From the NCBI RefSeq assembly GCF_026340565.1, contig NZ_JAPEPB010000001.1:1426001-1490000 (forward strand): a stretch of DNA of 64,000 bases, written 5' to 3'. A program made the position numbers and the translations under genes. A model generated the notes under the pieces. That model did not search any database, was not told where the DNA came from, and saw only the letters and a program-made list of their open reading frames with translations. This document shows, piece after piece, positions 3,185-13,402 of the stretch (its first letter is position 1; every line of letters starts with the position of its first letter). This DNA is from Kitasatospora sp. NBC_01287. Its GTDB lineage: Bacteria; Actinomycetota; Actinomycetes; Streptomycetales; Streptomycetaceae.

Positions 3185-4168
3185 TCACCCCCGCCCGTCA
3201 CCCCCGCCCGCGCGACCAGGCCCGCTCAGCCAGGCGCGTGCCGCGGCGGGCACCGCGTCGGGCTCGCCGCGGGCGATCCGCTCGTCGACCGGGAGCGGGC
3301 CGTCGAAGCGGTTGCCCTCGCGGTCGGCGTAGAAGGAGCCGCTGATGACCAGCCGGGCGCCGTCCCGCAGCTGGTGGGTCCGGTTCCCGGTGGTGTAGCC
3401 AGCGGTGGGCGCGCCGATGGTGCGCACGTTCGACTGGCCCTGGAAGGCGACCACCACGGCCTCGCCCGCGCTGGCGGTGTGACCCGAGGTGAGCAGGGCC
3501 AGCGGTGCGTCCGCCGCGCGCCGCCCGGAGCCGAGCGGACTGCGCGAGCGGGCCGTCGGCTTGCCGCCCAGGCTGACCCGACCGTCCTCCAGCGTCCAGG
3601 CCTCGCTCTGCCCGTCCGGGCCCTCGAACCGGCCGAGGACGCCGTCCCGCAGCAGCGGGGCCGCCACCGCGAGCATCGGCCACATGTTCCCGCCGGTGTT
3701 GGCGCGCACGTCCACCACCCACGCCCGCGGTGCCGCCGCCAGCAGCGTGCCGAGCACCTCGTCCCCGGCCCTGGCGTAGTCGCGGGCGAGGCGGTAGCCG
3801 TCGGACAGCCCCGGCAGTCTGAGGTAGCCCACCCCCTCGACGACCCGGCCGGTCGGCAGCGGCGGTCCCAACGCCGCCGCCCGGGCCGCGAGCCGCTCCC
3901 TGACCTCCGGCGGGACGGCTGCCCGCGGCAGCCGCAGTCCGCTGTGCCGGCCACCGGCCCGCAGTAGCACCTCGCGCAGCAGCGTGTGCGTGTCGGCGTA
4001 GCCGCCGGCCCCCGTCAGCACGGCCTGCGCCTCCTGCCGGACGCCCGTCCAGTCCACCGTGTCGCTGTACAGCGCGGTGCGGCGGATCAGCTCCAGCGCG
4101 TCCAGCAGGTAGGCACGGATCCGGCGCGCCGAGCGCCGCCCGCGAGCGGCGGAGAGAACGGTGAGCAT
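3185..4168 (-). CDS. S41 family peptidase
   Basis: This is a probable serine protease of the S41 (C-terminal processing/tricorn-core) family, 327 residues. The strand-turn motif VDVRANTGGNMW and the nucleophile region TSGHTASAGEAV, with the serine in the SAGE block, are family hallmarks, and an upstream GGRHSGL matches the substrate-site histidine segment. No PDZ domain or clear signal peptide is visible. An ATG exists 8 codons earlier (4192), but GGGAGG sits just before the one at 4168, which I prefer. It lies downstream of the lanthipeptide operon, separated by a strong terminator. A role in leader removal is possible but only speculation. Confidence 0.8.
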   Translation of the reverse strand: MLTVLSAARGRRSARRIRAYLLDALELIRRTALYSDTVDWTGVRQEAQAVLTGAGGYADTHTLLREVLLRAGGRHSGLRLPRAAVPPEVRERLAARAAALGPPLPTGRVVEGVGYLRLPGLSDGYRLARDYARAGDEVLGTLLAAAPRAWVVDVRANTGGNMWPMLAVAAPLLRDGVLGRFEGPDGQSEAWTLEDGRVSLGGKPTARSRSPLGSGRRAADAPLALLTSGHTASAGEAVVVAFQGQSNVRTIGAPTAGYTTGNRTHQLRDGARLVISGSFYADREGNRFDGPLPVDERIARGEPDAVPAAARAWLSGPGRAGGGDGRG

Positions 4169-4385
4169 CGGGTGCACCCTCCCGACCGGCATCGGGCCGC
4201 CGGTCCTGCCTGAGACCTCGCAACGTCACCGGGGACGGTACACCTTCTCCCAACCAGCCCTCCCCCAGGGCTCGGTGGGCGACCAGCGCACCCATCCCTG
4301 CCGCCCCGTCCCGCGGCCGAGCGGCGGGCGTCGTAGAGTCGGTCCAGCGTGACCGGGGCCGACCTGTCGGACCCGGTCACCGAAC

Positions 4386-4424
4386 AGCGGTGCCCACCCG
4401 ATTGAGGCTCGGGTGGGCACCGCT
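4386..4424 (-). terminator. Strong hairpin terminator after the lanthipeptide precursor gene
   Basis: A perfect 16-bp stem (AGCGGTGCCCACCCGA at 4386-4401 pairing with 4409-4424) surrounds a 7-base loop. It sits 27 bases beyond the precursor stop codon and separates it from the S41 peptidase gene. There is no long U tract, as is usual in actinobacteria. Confidence 0.8.
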
Positions 4425-4450
4425 GTCAGTTCAACGCGTCAACACGTACG

Positions 4451-4549
4451 TCACATGCAGGTACGCGAGGACCAGTGGCTGCAGAACAGCGACTCGACGA
4501 TCGACTCGTTCTCCTCGTTCAGGCCCTGGAGGTCGAGGATGAAAGCCAT
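4451..4549 (-). CDS. lanA: Class III lanthipeptide precursor peptide (LanA)
   Basis: This 32-codon gene encodes a peptide beginning MAFILDLQGLNEENES. The ILDLQ box is the conserved leader element of class III lanthipeptide precursors. The C-terminal core region, SLFCSHWSSRTCM, has a Ser-x2-Cys unit followed by Ser-x2-Ser-x3-Cys, which is the spacing used for a labionin or lanthionine ring. GAGG lies six bases before the ATG. It is 40 bases downstream of the lanKC stop and followed by a strong terminator, so the two form one transcript. The product is expected to be a short two-ring peptide of the SapB/labyrinthopeptin class. The exact leader cleavage site cannot be read from sequence. Confidence 0.9.
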   Translation of the reverse strand: MAFILDLQGLNEENESIVESLFCSHWSSRTCM

Positions 4550-4589
4550 GACACACCTCATTTCTTTGCGTTAACCGATGGGTTGGGTA

Positions 4590-7247
4590 CTACTCGTGCA
4601 CCGCGGCCAGTGGAGCGCCGTGGTGGTCCAGGAGGGGAAGGGCCGTGCCCTTCCGGGCCGACGCCGCGTGCAGCGCCAGCAGGATGCCGGCCGAGCCGGT
4701 GGCCAGGTCGGTGGAGAGGCGGAACAGGAGCTGGCCGGGGAACGCCGAGCGGTCCTGGTGGCGCACCAGGTGCCAGGAGAGCCGGGCCACCTGCCGCTCC
4801 AACTGCCGCGCGGCACTGCGGCCCTGGCCGCCAGGGCCACCATCGCCGCCACCATCGCAGCCACCGTCGCCGGCTGCGTCCCGGTCGCCGGCGGCCGCCG
4901 CGAGCGCGCAGACCAGTCCGGCCCGCCCCTCGAACAGCCCCGGCATCAGGAAGAATTCGGCCGCGCAGGCCTGGTCGAGCAGGTCGACGGCCTGGCTCAG
5001 CTGCGCGTCCTCGCGGTGGCGCAGCAGCGCCCGCGCGGCGATCGCCGCGCCTGCCGAGCCCGCGCCCAGGTAGGCGGTGCCCTGCCCGTCCTGGGTGAGC
5101 AGCATGCCCTTCTCGTCCACCTGGGCACCGGCCAGGTCGCGGGCCAGCGCGGCGAAGGCGAGATCCAGCCAGCGCTCCTCGCCGGTGTGCTCGTGCAGCC
5201 GGGTCAGGAAGAGCGCCAGGCCCGCGCCGCCGTTCAGCAGCCCGACCCGGCCCTTGCCGAGCACCGCGCCGGTGGCCAGCCGCTCGCCGTAGCCGAGCGC
5301 CTGCTCGGCCAGCTCGGGCTCGCCCCGCCGGTCGGCGAAGTGCAGCAGGCTCAGGCCGAGGCCGGCCAGGCCGCCCGACAGGTCGGCGCCGAAGACGCCG
5401 AGCCGCTGCCGGTGCTCGGTCAACTCCCGGGCCCGGTCCAGGATCTCGCCCGCCTCGTCGGGGCGGCCGACCCGGTCCAGGGCGAGCGCGGCACCGTGCA
5501 GGCCGTCGTACAGGCCGGGGCGGACCACCTTCGGGTCCCGCGCGGCCCGCAGCAACCACTCGACGTGCTCCTCCGGCACCGGGTAGCCGGTCTCCGCGAG
5601 GGCGTAGAGGACACCGGCGGCGCCGTGCGCGAGGTCGATGCCGCCGCGGTTGAACTGCTCGGGGTCGCCCGGGTAGAGCCGGTCGGTGCGCTGCGGCGTG
5701 GCGGCGGCCAGGATGCCCTCGGCCAGGTCGTCCATCACCCGGCGCCAGCTCTCGGCCGAGGCGCCGTCGGGGACGAAGGGCGCGATCCCGGTCCCGGTGC
5801 GCTCGGTGCTGCCGACCGGCAGCGCGCCGCCGGTGGCCGCCCGCAGCTGCCCGACCACCTCGGCCGCCCAGGAGGGCGGCAGCGCGAACCGCTCGGCCGC
5901 GGCGGCGGCCAGTTGCTCGGCCTTGGCCGAATCCAGCTCGATCAGGAAGGTCAGCGGCAGGAAGAGGAAGAGCCGCATGCAGGCCAGCGCGTACCGGTCG
6001 ATCGCGGCACCGGTGCGGGCGGCCGGCGAGATGAAGCCGGGGGCACCGAAGCCCGGCGGGGTGCCGTCGAGGAGGTCGAAGGCCAGCTCGAAGTCGACCA
6101 GGGCGAGCCGGCCGTCCGGGCGGACCATCACATTGCCGGGGTGCAGGTCACCGAAGGCCACCCCGTGCTCGTGCAGGGTCTCCACCATGGCGGTCAGCTG
6201 CTCGCCGAAGTCCAGCGCCATCGCGGTGTACTCGGCCAGCGCGGCGGCGTCCGGCTCGGGGCGCAGCAGCGGGTAGCGGCCGGTGAACAGGTGCCGCTCC
6301 AGCTTCTCGCCCTCGATGAACTCCTCGACCAGGTACTCGTGCTCCCAGACCACCAGGTGCTCGTAGAGCTCGGGCAGGAAGTCCAGGCCGGCCAGCCGCC
6401 GCAGCGTGTCGCGCTCGCGGTGCAGCCGTTCCACCGCGTCCGTGCCGCGCCGGTCCAGGCCGGCCATCGGGCGGGCCTCGCGCAGCACCACCACCCGCCC
6501 GTCGCGGCGGTCGCGCGCCTTGTAGACGCCGCCGCCGTTGGAGAAGTGCAGGGCCCCCTCGATGTCGTAGGGGAAGTCCTCGGGCGCGCCGGCCGCTCTG
6601 GACTCGACCTGCTCGCGCAGGAAGTCGGGCACCGTGATCCAGTCGGGGACGGAGAAGACCGGGCGGCGCAGGTCGGGGACGAGCGTGCCCTCCGCGTCCC
6701 GCAGCGCGGAGACCGTCCGGCCCTGCTCGTCGAGGCAGTACAGCTGGCGGAAGGCGCCGTACCGCACGAAGAGCAGGCTGTCCCGCCAGCGCAGATCGCT
6801 CAGGATGTACGGCCCGCGCCGCCCGGCCAGCCGGGGCTCCAGCCCTTCGAGGACCCGGAGCAGCTCGGCCTCGTCCCGCGGATAGAGCGTCAGCAGCTTT
6901 CCGCTGGAACCCCGCGGCGCGTATTTCGAATTCGCCTTCAGCACGGTTTCCCGGCCGCGCAGGAATTTGACGCTCAGCAGTTCCTCGCGGCAGAACTCCA
7001 GCACGGTGTCGATGATCTCGGGCGCCTCGTCGAGCCCCCCGGAGACGTGCACCTTCCACCCCTGGTCGGGCAGCACCGCGTCCTCGGGGTGCAGGTAGAC
7101 CCAGACGCTGTCGCGACTGCGGCGCCAGCCCTCCGGCACCGGCCGGACCGCCGGCGGGTAGAGGCCTTCGAGGTCGTCACGGGAGCCGGGGTCGTCGAAG
7201 TAGACGGGGTCCGCCTGGCAGAACTGCTCGTACTCCGAAGGCCGCAC
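4590..7247 (-). CDS. lanKC: Class III lanthionine synthetase LanKC
   Basis: This trifunctional lanthipeptide-modifying enzyme has about 885 residues, a normal length for the family. The N-terminal ~220 residues correspond to the phosphoSer/phosphoThr lyase domain. Residues ~230-480 are a protein-kinase-like domain with VAFGDLHPGNVM (catalytic loop) and LVDFELAF (metal-binding DFE). The rest is a LanC-like cyclase domain with GLYDGLHGAALAL and GLLNGGAGLALFL repeats. I see no WCYG/CHG zinc-ligand motifs in the cyclase part, which is typical of class III as opposed to class IV. An ATG at 7268 is in frame, but GGAGGGG lies eight bases before the GTG at 7247, which I choose. It is transcribed with the precursor gene downstream. 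Confidence 0.9.
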   Translation of the reverse strand: MRPSEYEQFCQADPVYFDDPGSRDDLEGLYPPAVRPVPEGWRRSRDSVWVYLHPEDAVLPDQGWKVHVSGGLDEAPEIIDTVLEFCREELLSVKFLRGRETVLKANSKYAPRGSSGKLLTLYPRDEAELLRVLEGLEPRLAGRRGPYILSDLRWRDSLLFVRYGAFRQLYCLDEQGRTVSALRDAEGTLVPDLRRPVFSVPDWITVPDFLREQVESRAAGAPEDFPYDIEGALHFSNGGGVYKARDRRDGRVVVLREARPMAGLDRRGTDAVERLHRERDTLRRLAGLDFLPELYEHLVVWEHEYLVEEFIEGEKLERHLFTGRYPLLRPEPDAAALAEYTAMALDFGEQLTAMVETLHEHGVAFGDLHPGNVMVRPDGRLALVDFELAFDLLDGTPPGFGAPGFISPAARTGAAIDRYALACMRLFLFLPLTFLIELDSAKAEQLAAAAAERFALPPSWAAEVVGQLRAATGGALPVGSTERTGTGIAPFVPDGASAESWRRVMDDLAEGILAAATPQRTDRLYPGDPEQFNRGGIDLAHGAAGVLYALAETGYPVPEEHVEWLLRAARDPKVVRPGLYDGLHGAALALDRVGRPDEAGEILDRARELTEHRQRLGVFGADLSGGLAGLGLSLLHFADRRGEPELAEQALGYGERLATGAVLGKGRVGLLNGGAGLALFLTRLHEHTGEERWLDLAFAALARDLAGAQVDEKGMLLTQDGQGTAYLGAGSAGAAIAARALLRHREDAQLSQAVDLLDQACAAEFFLMPGLFEGRAGLVCALAAAAGDRDAAGDGGCDGGGDGGPGGQGRSAARQLERQVARLSWHLVRHQDRSAFPGQLLFRLSTDLATGSAGILLALHAASARKGTALPLLDHHGAPLAAVHE

Positions 7248-7346
7248 CGAAGGATCCCCTCCACGCATAAATCGACGGACCGTGCGGGGTGTGCCCGGCC
7301 GTTCGCACTGACCCGGACTCGTTTTCGTGTCCGGCGTTGGACCGGA

Positions 7347-7376
7347 TTTATAGCCGGGTTTCCCGGATGGACTCAA
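7347..7376 (-). promoter_or_regulatory. Probable sigma70-type promoter of the lanKC-lanA operon
   Basis: Reading leftward, TTGAGT (7376-7371) and TATAAA (7352-7347) are separated by 18 bases, close to the housekeeping consensus. This leaves a leader of about 95 bases before lanKC. Such AT-rich elements are scarce in this DNA, which makes it stand out. Confidence 0.55.
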
Positions 7377-7722
7377 GACCTTGCGGCAGCAATAACGGCG
7401 TGTTAACCGCGCGGCCATCGAAGCCCGCTCGGACCGCCCACGATGACCGGAAAACCGTGAACCCCGCGGGCCGGCCGATCCGTGCCGCGCCCACCCGCCC
7501 CAGGCCCCGCCCCCGGAGCGCGGCACCGGTCGCACACCGACCACCACGCCGCGGGAGCCGCCGGAGTGGTGGCGGCGATTTTCGGCCAACCCGGCTGATT
7601 TCACGTTCAGTCCGCGCGACTCCACGCAGTGTGCGCGTCGCGGGCCGACCTCGAACGGCAACGCATTCGAAGGGGGCTCCCGAGGGGGTTGCCTCGAAGG
7701 GGGCCGCCAACAGGCCCTCCCG
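7377..7722. other. Non-coding stretch between lanKC promoter and ABC permease gene
   Basis: No convincing gene is seen. The stretch contains two copies of TCGAAGGGGGC (7667-7677 and 7694-7704) and a short AT-rich patch near 7570-7610. It is downstream of the permease stop and upstream of the lanKC promoter. Confidence 0.5.
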
Positions 7723-10256
7723 CTACCGCCGTCGGCGGCCGCCCGTCAGCGGGTGGCTCCGCAGCAGGGCCCGGGTGGGCAGGCCGGTCGCGGCGAGGCA
7801 GAGCAGGACGGCTCCGGCGGCCAGGGGTAGTACCAGGCCGGGCGGGACGTACGGTGCGGTGCCCGCGATGCCGCGGGCGATCGGGAGAAGGGCGATCCAG
7901 GCGATGGCTCCGCCGACCGTCAGGCCGGTCACGGCGACCAGCAGCGCCTCCCAGCGCATCATCCGGCGCACCTGACGCCGGGTGGTGCCGGCCAGTCGCA
8001 GCAACGCCACCTCACGGCGCCGGTCGAGCACCGTCATGACCAGCGTGTTGGCGGCGTTGACGGCGGCGAACCCGCCCAGGACGCCCGCCATCACGGTGTC
8101 GGCCCAGCCGTTGAGCTCCGTCATCGCGTCCGACCGGGCGACGAATGAGGCCCGGTCGGTGACGGTCGCACCGCCACCCGGGCCAGCCAGGCCGATCAAG
8201 GCGGCCGCCACGGCCGCGCGATCGGCACCCGGCGCGTCCGCGACCAGGACCTGGCTGTCGTATCCGGCCGTGACGTGCGCGGCGACGGCCGCCCTCGGCA
8301 GCAGCACCTGGCCGAGGCCCGGCCCGCGGTCGTAGGTGGCCACCACGGTGGGCCGCACCTCGGTGCCGTCCCCGAGCCAGAGCGGCACCCTCTCGCCGAC
8401 CCGCACGCCCAACTCGTCGGCCAGGCCCGCGTCCAGGGCGACGGTGTCGGCGGAGCGGCCGAGGTCGGCGAGCGCGCCCTCGCGCACCGGCAGGTCGAGC
8501 ACCGCGGGCAGCCTGGCCGGGTCCCCGTCGACGCCGAGCGCGGTGGCGGAGTCGATGTCCTGGTCGGCGGCGAACAGCGCGGAGGTGTGCAGCAGACCCA
8601 CGGCGGCGGCCACGCCGGGCAGTTGGGCCACCCGCTCGGCAGTGCCCGCGGGCAGGCCGGGGGCGGTGGAGCCGAGCACCTGGTCGGCGGTGACGCCGGT
8701 GCGGATGTTCTCGCCGGTGGCGTGCGCGATGGTGCTCTGGAGGAGGAGCAGGGTGCCGCAGAACGCGGTGACCAGCACGATCGGGGTGATCGCGGAGGCC
8801 AGCCGGCGGGCGCCCGCCCGGGTGTTGTCGGCGGCCAGCGAGCCGGGCGCGCCGCAGGCCCGCAGCGGGACGCCGAGCACGGCGGCGGCCAGCCGGGCCA
8901 CCCAGGGGCCGAGCAGGGCGACGGCCGCCATGAAGCACATGACCACGCCGAGCGCGGTGTTGGCGGCCTTCGCCCCGTCCAGGCCGGCGGCGAGGACAGC
9001 GGCCACCACACCGCCCGCCGTGCAGAGCAGTCCGAGGCAGATCCGCACCGGGCCGGGCCGGCCGGGTTCGATGGCGGCCTGGCCGAGCGCCTGACCGGGG
9101 CGCAGCCGGGCGGGGCGGCGGGCGGCCAGGAAGCCGGCGGCCAGGGCGGCCAGGGTGCAGATGAGCACGGCGGCGAGGATCGGCAGCGGGCCGACGTCGA
9201 GCCGGACGCCGGGCGGGATCGCCCCGCGCGACACCAGCTGGTCGAGCCACCAGCGGGCGAGGGCGAGTCCGGGCAGGATGCCGAGCGCCCCGGCCACGGG
9301 GGCGAGCAGCACCGCCTCGGTGGCGATGCTGCGGCGGATCTGCCGGGGGGTGGCGCCGATGGCGCGCAGCAGGGCGAACTCGCGGACGCGCTGACCGGTG
9401 GCGAGGGCGACGGTGCTCATCACGACGAAGACCGCGGTCATGGTGGCGTAGCCGCCGAAGGAGCCGCCGATGCCCACCAGCAGGGTGCGGGCCCCGCCGA
9501 TCGCGGGCTGCTCGACGGCGCCGCGGCCGTCCCCGGTGAACACCTCGGCGGCGCCGCCCAGGGCCTGGCGGACCTGGGCCGCCAGTGCCAGGACGGTGAC
9601 GCCGTCGCGCGGTTGGACGGTGATCGCGTCGACGCGGCCCGGGTGGCCGCAGAGGCGGTCGGCCGTGGCGTCGGCGAACCAGGCGGTGGGGCCGGCCGGC
9701 TGTCCGGCGGCCAGGCCGCTGACGCGGAAGCTGCCGGTGCCGCCGGGAGCGGTGAGGGTGAGGCTCGCGCCCGGCGCGAGGTGGGCGGTGCGCGCCGTGT
9801 CAGCGTCCAGCACCACCTCGTTCGGGCCGGGGGCGCGGCCTTCGAGGAGCCGGTCGGCGGGGCCGGCGATGCCGAGCGCGGCGAAGCCCCGGCCGGTCAG
9901 CGCGGGGTGGTCCTCACCGGCCGGCAGCGGGAAGGCGCTGTCCGGACGGGCCTCGGCCGCACCCGGCAGGCCGGCGATCCGGCCCGCCAGCGCGGCGTCC
10001 ACCCGGGCCCGTTCGGGCACCGCCTGCGTCACGGTCTCGGTGTCCTGGCCGGTCCTCACGCTCAGCCTGACGTCCGGGTCGGCGGCGACGACCACCGGTG
10101 CCCGGGCGTACCGGAGGGGCGGCAGCTTCGCGGTCAGGCCGGTCTGCAGCAGCACGCCGCAGGCCGCCACGACGGCGGCCGCCAGCGCCAGGGCGATCAG
10201 GGTGCCCGCGAAGGAGGCGGGCCGGAAGCGCACGGAGGCGCGGGCCAGTCCGTTCG

Positions 10257-10260
<4 letters not shown>
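7723..10260 (-). CDS. FtsX-like ABC transporter permease (MacB type)
   Basis: This 845-residue membrane protein carries two FtsX-type permease units. The first has a helix at the N-terminus (AGTLIALALAAAVVAACGVLL), a large extracytoplasmic domain, then TMTAVFVVMSTVALATG and REFALLRAIGATPRQIRR. The second ends with REVALLRLAGTTRRQVRRMM and further helices. The paired (A/V)LLR-x-G/A-x-T-x-x-Q-(V/I)-R-R motifs are diagnostic of MacB/LolC-like permeases. The GTG start overlaps the stop of the ATPase gene (GTGA). Such transporters in actinobacteria often export or detoxify peptides. Its closeness to the lanthipeptide genes makes a role in export or immunity possible, but the divergent two-component system is an equally good partner. 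Confidence 0.87.
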
Positions 10261-11114
<854 letters not shown>

Positions 11115-11441
11115 GATCTCCTCCTGGGGTGGGGTGGGGTGGGGTGGGTTGCGGTACGGCCGGGGCGTCCCGACCGGTCTCCAGCCCATCACCCGGCCGG
11201 CGCGTTCTCGTCCGAGCGCGGGACGAGAAGGCGCGGGGGACCTCGGTCCACCGGCCGGCGGGACCAGGACCCTGCTCCTACCCCGGGATCCACCCGCGGG
11301 CCCGGTGACCTGCGGTGCGGCGGTGGAAGAATGGTTCGCGCACGCCGGCCGCGGCGCACCGGGGAGGGCCCGGCGCGCGGGCCGCCGCGGACACCCGCCG
11401 CGGACACGCGCAAAGGACACCCGCAGAGGAGAACCACCAGC
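11115..11441. other. Divergent regulatory region between ABC operon and two-component system
   Basis: This region of about 330 bases contains no gene. It holds the leftward ribosome binding site, the TGGGG repeat at 11125-11148 and the rightward AGAGGAGA site before the kinase gene. I could not assign a clear promoter. Confidence 0.5.
11125..11148. repeat. TGGGG pentanucleotide repeat upstream of the ABC ATPase gene
   Basis: Four perfect TGGGG units plus a partial TGGG lie directly next to the ribosome binding site of the ATPase gene. In that mRNA they read as CCCCA repeats. The tract could vary by slippage or form a G-rich structure on the + strand. Confidence 0.7.
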
Positions 11442-12719
11442 ATGGCGACGCGCCGACCGCTGCCGCCGGACCCGGCGCAGGTACCACAGTCACCACAGGC
11501 ACCGCAGGCACTCGACGGACCGGGCACCGACTCCCCCTGGACCCGCAACGACGCGCTGGTGGCCGCCGGTTCGGCCATCCTGGACCTGTTCGGCTACACG
11601 ATGACCAGCCTGGACGACAACCATCCGCTGAGCCTGCTGGGGCTGGTGCTCAGTGTGCTGGCGGCGCTGCCGCTGCTGGTCCGGCGCCGTCACCCGCTCG
11701 CGGTCCTGGTCGTGGTGCTGGCCCTCAACCTGGCGCTGAACCTGAGCGCGCCGCTGTCGCACCACTTCCCCTGCACCATCGCGGTGGCACTGTTCGCCGT
11801 CACCCAGTACCGCTCGCTCGCCCTCGCCGTGCCGGCGGGGCTGACCGCCTCCCTCGTCGCGCTGACCAGCCTCGGACCGCGCCTGAGCCTGGGCGGGGAG
11901 GACGTCCTGGGCAGCCTGCTGGCGAGCGTGCTGGTGGTCGGCACCGGCGCCGTGCTCACCCGCTGGCAGCGCGAGCTGGAGATCCGGCGCCGGCTGCTGG
12001 CGGAGCGCGCGGTGGCCGAGGAACGGCGGCGGATCGCGCGGGAGCTGCACGACATCGTCGCCCACCAGATCACCACCATGCAGCTGATGGCCGGCGGTGC
12101 GCGGGCCAACCTGGGCGGCGACATCGAGGTGGTGCGCGAGGCCCTGGTGACGCTGGAGAGCTCCGGCCGCCTGGCACTGCGCGAGATGCGCCAGCTGCTC
12201 GATGTGCTGCGGGCCGACGACGAGCGCGAGGAGGTCCCGGCCGCGCCTCAGCCCGGCACCGCCGACCTGGAACGGATCGTCGACGAGTCGCGGCTGGCCG
12301 GCCTGCCCACCGAGTTCACCGTCCACGGCACCGCGCGAGCGCTGCCGCCGACCACCGACCTGGCCGTCTTCCGGATCGTCCAGGAGTCGCTCACCAACAC
12401 CCGCAAGCACGCCGGCCCTGCCCGGGCCCGGGTCGAACTGACCTACCGGCCGCACTCGGTCACCGTGGAGGTCAGCGATGACGGCGCCGGCCGGCCGGGC
12501 CGCACCGCCGGCGGGGCGCACGGCCACGGTGGTGCCCTCACCCCGCCGGGATCGGGCGGGGAGCGCGGCGGGTACGGTCTGATCGGCATGCGGGAGCGGG
12601 CCGCGCTGAACGGCGGCAGCCTGGTGGCCGGGCCACAGGCGGAGGGCGGGTTCCGCGTCACGGCGAGCCTGCCGCTGGGCCCGGCCGAGAACGTCGAGAG
12701 GGAGGAACTGTTCGGATGA
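11442..12719 (+). CDS. NarL/DesK-type sensor histidine kinase
   Basis: This is a 425-residue membrane-bound sensor kinase. A proline-rich N-terminus is followed by about five hydrophobic helices (residues ~38-172) with little extracytoplasmic sequence. Then comes a HisKA_3 dimerisation box RRIARELHDIVAHQ with phospho-acceptor His203, and an ATPase domain with FRIVQESLTNTRKHA (N box), SDDGAGR and GYGLIGMRERA (G boxes). The ATG follows GAGGAGA. It overlaps the response-regulator gene by four bases (ATGA), so the two form a two-component system. Kinases of this type next to FtsX-like exporters often sense cell-envelope stress or peptides and control the exporter. Signal unknown. Confidence 0.92.
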   Translation: MATRRPLPPDPAQVPQSPQAPQALDGPGTDSPWTRNDALVAAGSAILDLFGYTMTSLDDNHPLSLLGLVLSVLAALPLLVRRRHPLAVLVVVLALNLALNLSAPLSHHFPCTIAVALFAVTQYRSLALAVPAGLTASLVALTSLGPRLSLGGEDVLGSLLASVLVVGTGAVLTRWQRELEIRRRLLAERAVAEERRRIARELHDIVAHQITTMQLMAGGARANLGGDIEVVREALVTLESSGRLALREMRQLLDVLRADDEREEVPAAPQPGTADLERIVDESRLAGLPTEFTVHGTARALPPTTDLAVFRIVQESLTNTRKHAGPARARVELTYRPHSVTVEVSDDGAGRPGRTAGGAHGHGGALTPPGSGGERGGYGLIGMRERAALNGGSLVAGPQAEGGFRVTASLPLGPAENVEREELFG

Positions 12720-13402
12720 CACCGACCACGGCGCCGATCAGGGTGCTGATCGCGGACGACCAGCCGCTGGTCCGGCGCGGCCTGGCCCTGATCCTGGCGC
12801 CCGCTCCGGGCGTCGAGGTGGTGGCCGAGGCCGAGCACGGCGAGCAGGCCGTCGAGCTGGCCCACCGGCACCGGCCCTCGGTGGTGGTCATGGACGTCCG
12901 GATGCCGGTCCTCGACGGCGTCCAGGCCACCGAGCGCCTCGCCCGCGAACTGCCCGACTGCCGGGTCCTGGCACTGAGCACCTTCGACATGGACGAGTAC
13001 GTGGTGGCCGCGCTGCGCGCCGGTGCCTACGGCTTCCTGCCCAAGGACGTCTCCCCGGAGGACCTGCTCGCCGCGATCCGCACCGTGCACACCGGCGAGG
13101 CCGCCGTGGCGCCCCGGCTGCTCACCCGGCTGCTCTCCACCTACGTCACCGCGTCCCACCCGCCGCGGCCGACGGCCGCGGCGCAGAGCCCGGTCGACCT
13201 GACGGCCCGCGAGGTCGAGGTGTGGCGCCTGATCGCCACCGGTCTGGACAACGCCGAGATCGCGCGGGCCATGGAGATCAGCCTCTCCACGGTCAAGAAC
13301 CACATCACCAGCATCTTCGGCAAGCTGCGGGTGCGTGACCGCGCCCAGGCGGTGATCGCCGCCTACGAGTCCGGCCTGGTCGCGGCCGGCCCCACGGGCT
13401 GA
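12716..13402 (+). CDS. NarL/FixJ-family response regulator
   Basis: This 228-residue response regulator is the partner of the kinase that overlaps it. The receiver domain shows the acidic pair in IADDQ, phospho-acceptor Asp60 in VVMDVRMP and the conserved lysine in GFLPKDV. The C-terminal LuxR-type HTH is LTAREVEVWRLIATGL followed by NAEIARAMEISLSTVKNH. It probably regulates the divergent ABC operon across the 330-base intergenic region. That target is inferred from position only. Confidence 0.93.
   Translation: MTPTTAPIRVLIADDQPLVRRGLALILAPAPGVEVVAEAEHGEQAVELAHRHRPSVVVMDVRMPVLDGVQATERLARELPDCRVLALSTFDMDEYVVAALRAGAYGFLPKDVSPEDLLAAIRTVHTGEAAVAPRLLTRLLSTYVTASHPPRPTAAAQSPVDLTAREVEVWRLIATGLDNAEIARAMEISLSTVKNHITSIFGKLRVRDRAQAVIAAYESGLVAAGPTG

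Follow-up and report, generated by a model that had tools for sequence, protein, structure and literature searches.

The question raised by this locus is whether the short open reading frame that follows a lanKC gene in the window (the whole 64,000-nucleotide stretch of DNA analysed here) encodes a class III lanthipeptide precursor and, if so, which rings its product would carry. The lanKC gene and the short frame (lanA) share one strand in head-to-tail order, with a hairpin beyond lanA (Table 1), and we regard it as very probable from their sequences that they form a two-gene class III lanthipeptide unit. An earlier note on this DNA had confidently called a class III precursor here, and that call is now backed by the identity of the LanKC enzyme, the leader box, the position of the gene, its conservation and the motif in its core, all of which point to such a precursor.

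Table 1. Features of the lanKC-lanA locus, in window coordinates.
Feature	Position	Strand	Details
lanA, class III lanthipeptide precursor, 32 aa (predicted)	4451..4549	-	MAFILDLQGLNEENESIVESLFCSHWSSRTCM; leader box FILDLQGL; core approximately residues 20-32
lanKC-lanA spacer	4550..4589	-	ribosome-binding-like GAGGTG ahead of lanA start
lanKC, class III lanthionine synthetase, 892 aa	4590..7268	-	NF038151 951.9 bits; RamC_N 1.8e-73; PDB LanKC structures
Intergenic hairpin after lanA	~4383..4425 (approximate limits)	-	-40.3 kcal/mol, z -7.7
Shared unit (lanKC upstream region, lanKC, lanA, hairpin)	4375..7501	-	blastn of 20-kb regions

The lanKC product is placed in class III by its score with NF038151, the NCBIfam class III model, which far exceeds the cut-off of 575 bits; with the class IV LanL model it reaches 396 bits, under the cut-off of 650. 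Its Pfam domains are a RamC_N lyase, a kinase and a LANC_like cyclase, and solved LanKC structures in the PDB match it at E values of 1e-85 or better. The kinase has the motifs GDLHPGN and DFE. At the positions of the NisC zinc ligands (sites taken from PMC10604976), the present cyclase has LFEG, within GLFEGRAG, and GSAG, within YLGAGSAG, and no Cys-His, so that the zinc ligands are absent. It is the sole LanKC in its own genome over the class III cut-off.

Minus-strand translation of 4451–4549 gives MAFILDLQGLNEENESIVESLFCSHWSSRTCM and a stop codon, which, together with the identity of LanKC, confirms the claim of a 32-residue precursor gene just downstream of lanKC; the distance of 40 bases given for it is exactly the 40 nt found to the lanKC stop at 4590. 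An in-frame ATG at 4561 would extend lanA to 36 aa. We rejected this longer start, since the Streptomyces sp. NRRL WC-3742 orthologue lacks an in-frame ATG at that position, and AAAGAGG lies just before its start for 32 aa. The ILDLQ leader box of the earlier note is found as FILDLQGL, which matches the class III leader motif LxLQ/LELQ (PMC7268733) and, as a box of the LxLQ type encoded 40 nt downstream of lanKC and kept in five species, has the marks of a class III precursor. Beyond it lie the one Ser-x2-Cys and the one Ser-x2-Ser-x3-Cys that had been read from the sequence, S20-x2-C23 and S24-x2-S27-x3-C31, and a third motif, S16-x3-S20-x2-C23, can also be written. The stretch S24-H-W-S27-SRT-C31, with invariant spacing and invariant Ser and Cys, has the S-x2-S-x3-C form of a class III core. 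The added remark on the shortness of the core holds only in a mild sense, as the same genus and family contain other class III precursors of 28–37 aa, and the remark that the gene is easily missed stands: only the leader matches the RamS and SapB_AmfS models, with scores of 15 (PF19402, cut-off 24.3) and 10.4 (NF033212, cut-off 25), so standard annotation would tend to pass lanA over. On the same scores we rejected its membership of the SapB/AmfS (RamS) family. A search of its whole genome found no RamS-family precursor above the cut-off.

The most likely outcome predicted from these motifs is that S24-x2-S27-x3-C31 becomes a labionin or a lanthionine and that S20 and C23 form a second ring, as follows: the leaders of this class dock on LanKC in helical form, through a motif of the LELQ type (PMC10604976), and LanKC would so bind the FILDLQGL helix of the precursor, phosphorylate Ser20, Ser24, Ser27 and possibly Ser28, eliminate them to dehydroalanine (Dha) and add Cys31 to Dha27; the enolate left by this addition would either attack Dha24, giving labionin, or be protonated, giving lanthionine, and Cys23 and Dha20 would form the small ring. 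Since neither a protease nor a transporter is conserved alongside the two genes (below), the leader would be cleaved off and the product exported by enzymes whose genes lie elsewhere. The possibility that Cys31 joins Dha24 or Dha27 and no labionin forms, as in the lanthionine-only class III peptides, has a large share of the probability, though somewhat under half: SxxSxxxC yields lanthionine in some class III peptides and labionin in others (PMC7268733; PMC13380574), the choice is not predictable from the LanKC sequence (PMC13380574), and the present sequence offers no counterpoint. It is unlikely, on the other hand, that Ser16 is the first core residue and that the product has two labionins, the first made from Ser16-x3-Ser20-x2-Cys23. 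Such a ring would have the Ser-x3-Ser spacing of noursin, whose labionin spans S3-x3-S7-x7-C15 (PMC10206099), and none of the five precursors differs at Ser16 (below), but the distance from the leader Gln to the first ring-motif Ser is 13–20 residues in the other class III precursors collected and only eight residues to Ser16. The two-residue gap between its second Ser and the Cys is also short, though S-x2-S-x2-C units are present in other precursors (L009, L142). Counted from the leader Gln, S20 stands at 12 and S24 at 16, the latter inside the range of the others, so that S20–M32 is the best reading of the core, and Ser16, too near the Gln, is probably a leader residue.

The unit of lanKC, 32-aa frame and hairpin recurs in four other Streptomycetaceae species (G059, G113, G041 (CB01881) and G033 (NRRL WC-3742)). 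Among 70 genomes of the genus, four have the precursor; among 394 genomes sampled from the family, five do, and one of these belongs to another genus. An orthologous LanKC gene stands directly ahead of it in every case, across a spacer of 26–62 nt whose sequence varies. In the pairs computed, conservation is higher in the precursors (88–97% identity) than in the LanKCs (67–79%), and all six dN/dS values fall under 1 (0.07–0.76; 0.07–0.35 for the four with dS above 0.2); these comparisons cover four genomes, with G113 left out. No Ser or Cys from residue 16 onwards (Ser16, 20, 24, 27 and 28; Cys23 and 31) differs among the five precursors, and residues 11, 14, 18, 21, 22 and 30 vary; Thr30 is dispensable, since two relatives have Ala there. 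Covariation within the core is weak, because the precursors are just five and near-identical. That lanA is a decayed or non-coding stretch resembling a precursor by chance, as its very short length and its scores under the curated HMM cut-offs might suggest, is extremely improbable, because a 32-codon frame of such high identity stands at the same place in five genomes after a variable spacer, with frame, start, Cys and Ser kept beside an intact LanKC. The LanKC closest to that of G059 (L039) is the one of G113 (L070), the genome from the other genus, and it is nearer to G059 than the window LanKC is, which suggests that the two-gene unit has been transferred between genera.

When 20-kb regions were compared by blastn, what the relatives had in common was limited to lanKC, at most ~230 bp upstream of it, lanA and the hairpin; outside this unit no synteny was found in the four relatives, and the flanking genes differ in every one. 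Neither ramAB/amfAB-type transporters nor a ramR-type regulator is conserved with the unit in the synteny comparison, nor, in the four relatives, is any other transporter, protease or regulator. The unit is therefore a two-gene cassette complete in itself, to which the transporter, two-component and peptidase genes beside it do not belong. An S41-peptidase-like gene (3185–4192), an FtsX/ATPase transporter (~7723–11000) and histidine kinase/response regulator genes were rejected as cluster members on these grounds, being not syntenic in the four relatives. The region adjoining lanKC, 7723–13402, holds an FtsX-type permease with its ATPase and a divergent histidine kinase/response regulator pair, and is not conserved with lanKC.

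The hairpin had been described as a strong terminator, and this description survives in part. It is real (Table 1), and hairpins with different stem sequences stand at the matching place in CB01881 (-41.3 kcal/mol) and NRRL WC-3742 (-37.4 kcal/mol); however, it has no T tract, and a terminator consensus scan gave it no score, for which the missing T tract is the reason. It may end the transcript or stabilise its 3' end.

How far does this type of precursor extend? The family was searched for LanKCs with the N-terminal domain as query, and in a maximum-likelihood tree of 94 LanKCs the five of the window clade are sister (SH-aLRT 99) to the LanKCs of G068, G038 and G131. Weak matches to the window-precursor profile elsewhere (E 0.05–1) were mostly short fragments that we took as chance; the exception, in G068, led to a clade whose precursors have no Cys. 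Seven such precursors were found in four genomes (L071/L205 in G068, L081/L206 in G038, L154/L204 in G131 and L202 in G048), three of them different from one another and in tandem (1266–1680) behind one LanKC in the contig-truncated L202. The G131 LanKC is broken into frames in its assembly, and the G048 LanKC is truncated by its contig. All seven fit S-x2-S-x3-H (SHWSSVAH, SHWSSFAH, SHWSTDLH, SEISSFTH, SHTSSALH, SHWSGAAH and SFLSTQSH), with a chance of 0.4–3.6% per peptide on shuffling; the product of these values is not a probability, because the peptides are related. When aligned on SHWSS, the His occupies the position of Cys31 in the window precursor and, as Cys is absent, is the sole nucleophile conserved in all seven. 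In the two sister LanKCs compared, GG replaces GS at a probable former zinc-ligand site, a change that could possibly correlate with the use of His. A further conserved stretch lies downstream of the Cys-free precursors in G068, G038 and G048 (L205, L206 and L202) and may belong to the cluster.

We tentatively propose, as an idea with somewhat less than an even chance of being right, a LanKC clade with two arms: the window arm uses S-x2-S-x3-Cys, and the sister arm would close a labionin- or lanthionine-like crosslink with His, giving a sulphur-free relative of labionin. The motif predicts a histidine-closed analogue that would be related to, and distinct from, the histidinobutyrine of noursin, the only Cys-free or histidine-closed class III case found in the papers searched. 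Precursors of this kind would have been missed by a mining study that discarded every ORF without Cys (PMC7268733). No clear window-type or Cys-free members were found outside the family in class-wide samples, and a plasmid search found only LanKCs under 60% identity. Other short precursors were also seen. In Streptomyces litmocidini (L008), a 46%-identical LanKC, with its stop near 7601, is followed by MACVLQLQSLGEAESAHPCNSIVTSYKGTC, an unusual short class III precursor with Cys ahead of Ser/Thr. Three loci (L072 in G042, L144 in G135 and L079 in G055) hold arrays or single precursors with WSTISNHC/WSTRSQNC cores, in which His or Asn stands beside the terminal Cys.

The lanA gene adds a small and easily missed product type to the class III lanthipeptides, and its compact unit of two genes should be easy to reconstitute. 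The more surprising lead is the exchange of Cys for His in the sister clade. The precursors of these nearest relatives are odder than lanA in lacking the usual Cys and having His at the same spot. This lead is also the weightier one: if LanKC does form rings on His without Cys, then mining that discards Cys-free frames has overlooked a chemistry, the enzymes of the window and the sister clade would be a natural pair for probing the choice of Cys or His by the cyclase, and a natural exchange at one position would show how the two chemistries interconvert.

Among known systems, SapB/RamS and AmfS share with this locus the LanKC enzyme, the LxLQ leader box, the S-x2-S-x3-C unit and a precursor gene directly downstream of lanKC. 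The window precursor differs from them in its 32 aa and in having one S-x2-S-x3-C and one S-x2-C rather than two hydrophobic S-x2-S-x3-C units; neither an ABC transporter pair nor RamR/AmfR is conserved with it, and its LanKC falls in a separate clade of the LanKC tree. That the peptide replaces the SapB/AmfS morphogen is conceivable but unsupported, since its core has a lower hydrophobicity and the unit is not accompanied by a conserved transporter or RamR-like regulator. The ring unit of labyrinthopeptin A2 is Ser-x-Trp-Ser-x3-Cys, and the window core has the same pattern; as against labyrinthopeptin A2, it has a single ring unit, no C-terminal CC, and His for Asp inside the first ring. Noursin is likewise made by a class III LanKC, LanKC-Hbt, which adds His to dehydrobutyrine after forming the Cys labionin (PMC10206099) and so uses both nucleophiles, a point relevant to the sister clade. 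The window core SLFCSHWSSRTCM has no Thr-x2-His after a labionin unit and thus departs from the noursin-type S-x3-S-T-x2-H-x3-C core, and the sister precursors differ from noursin in having no Cys at all and an invariant S-x2-S-x3-H. ThurKC has the same LanKC domain order and a metal-independent cyclase; its system, unlike the present one, is of Firmicutes origin and has several precursors with Ser/Thr-rich cores and up to 11 dehydrations (PMC10604976). Set beside these systems, the lanA precursor is a new class III member, belonging to a small, conserved subfamily that current precursor models do not cover.
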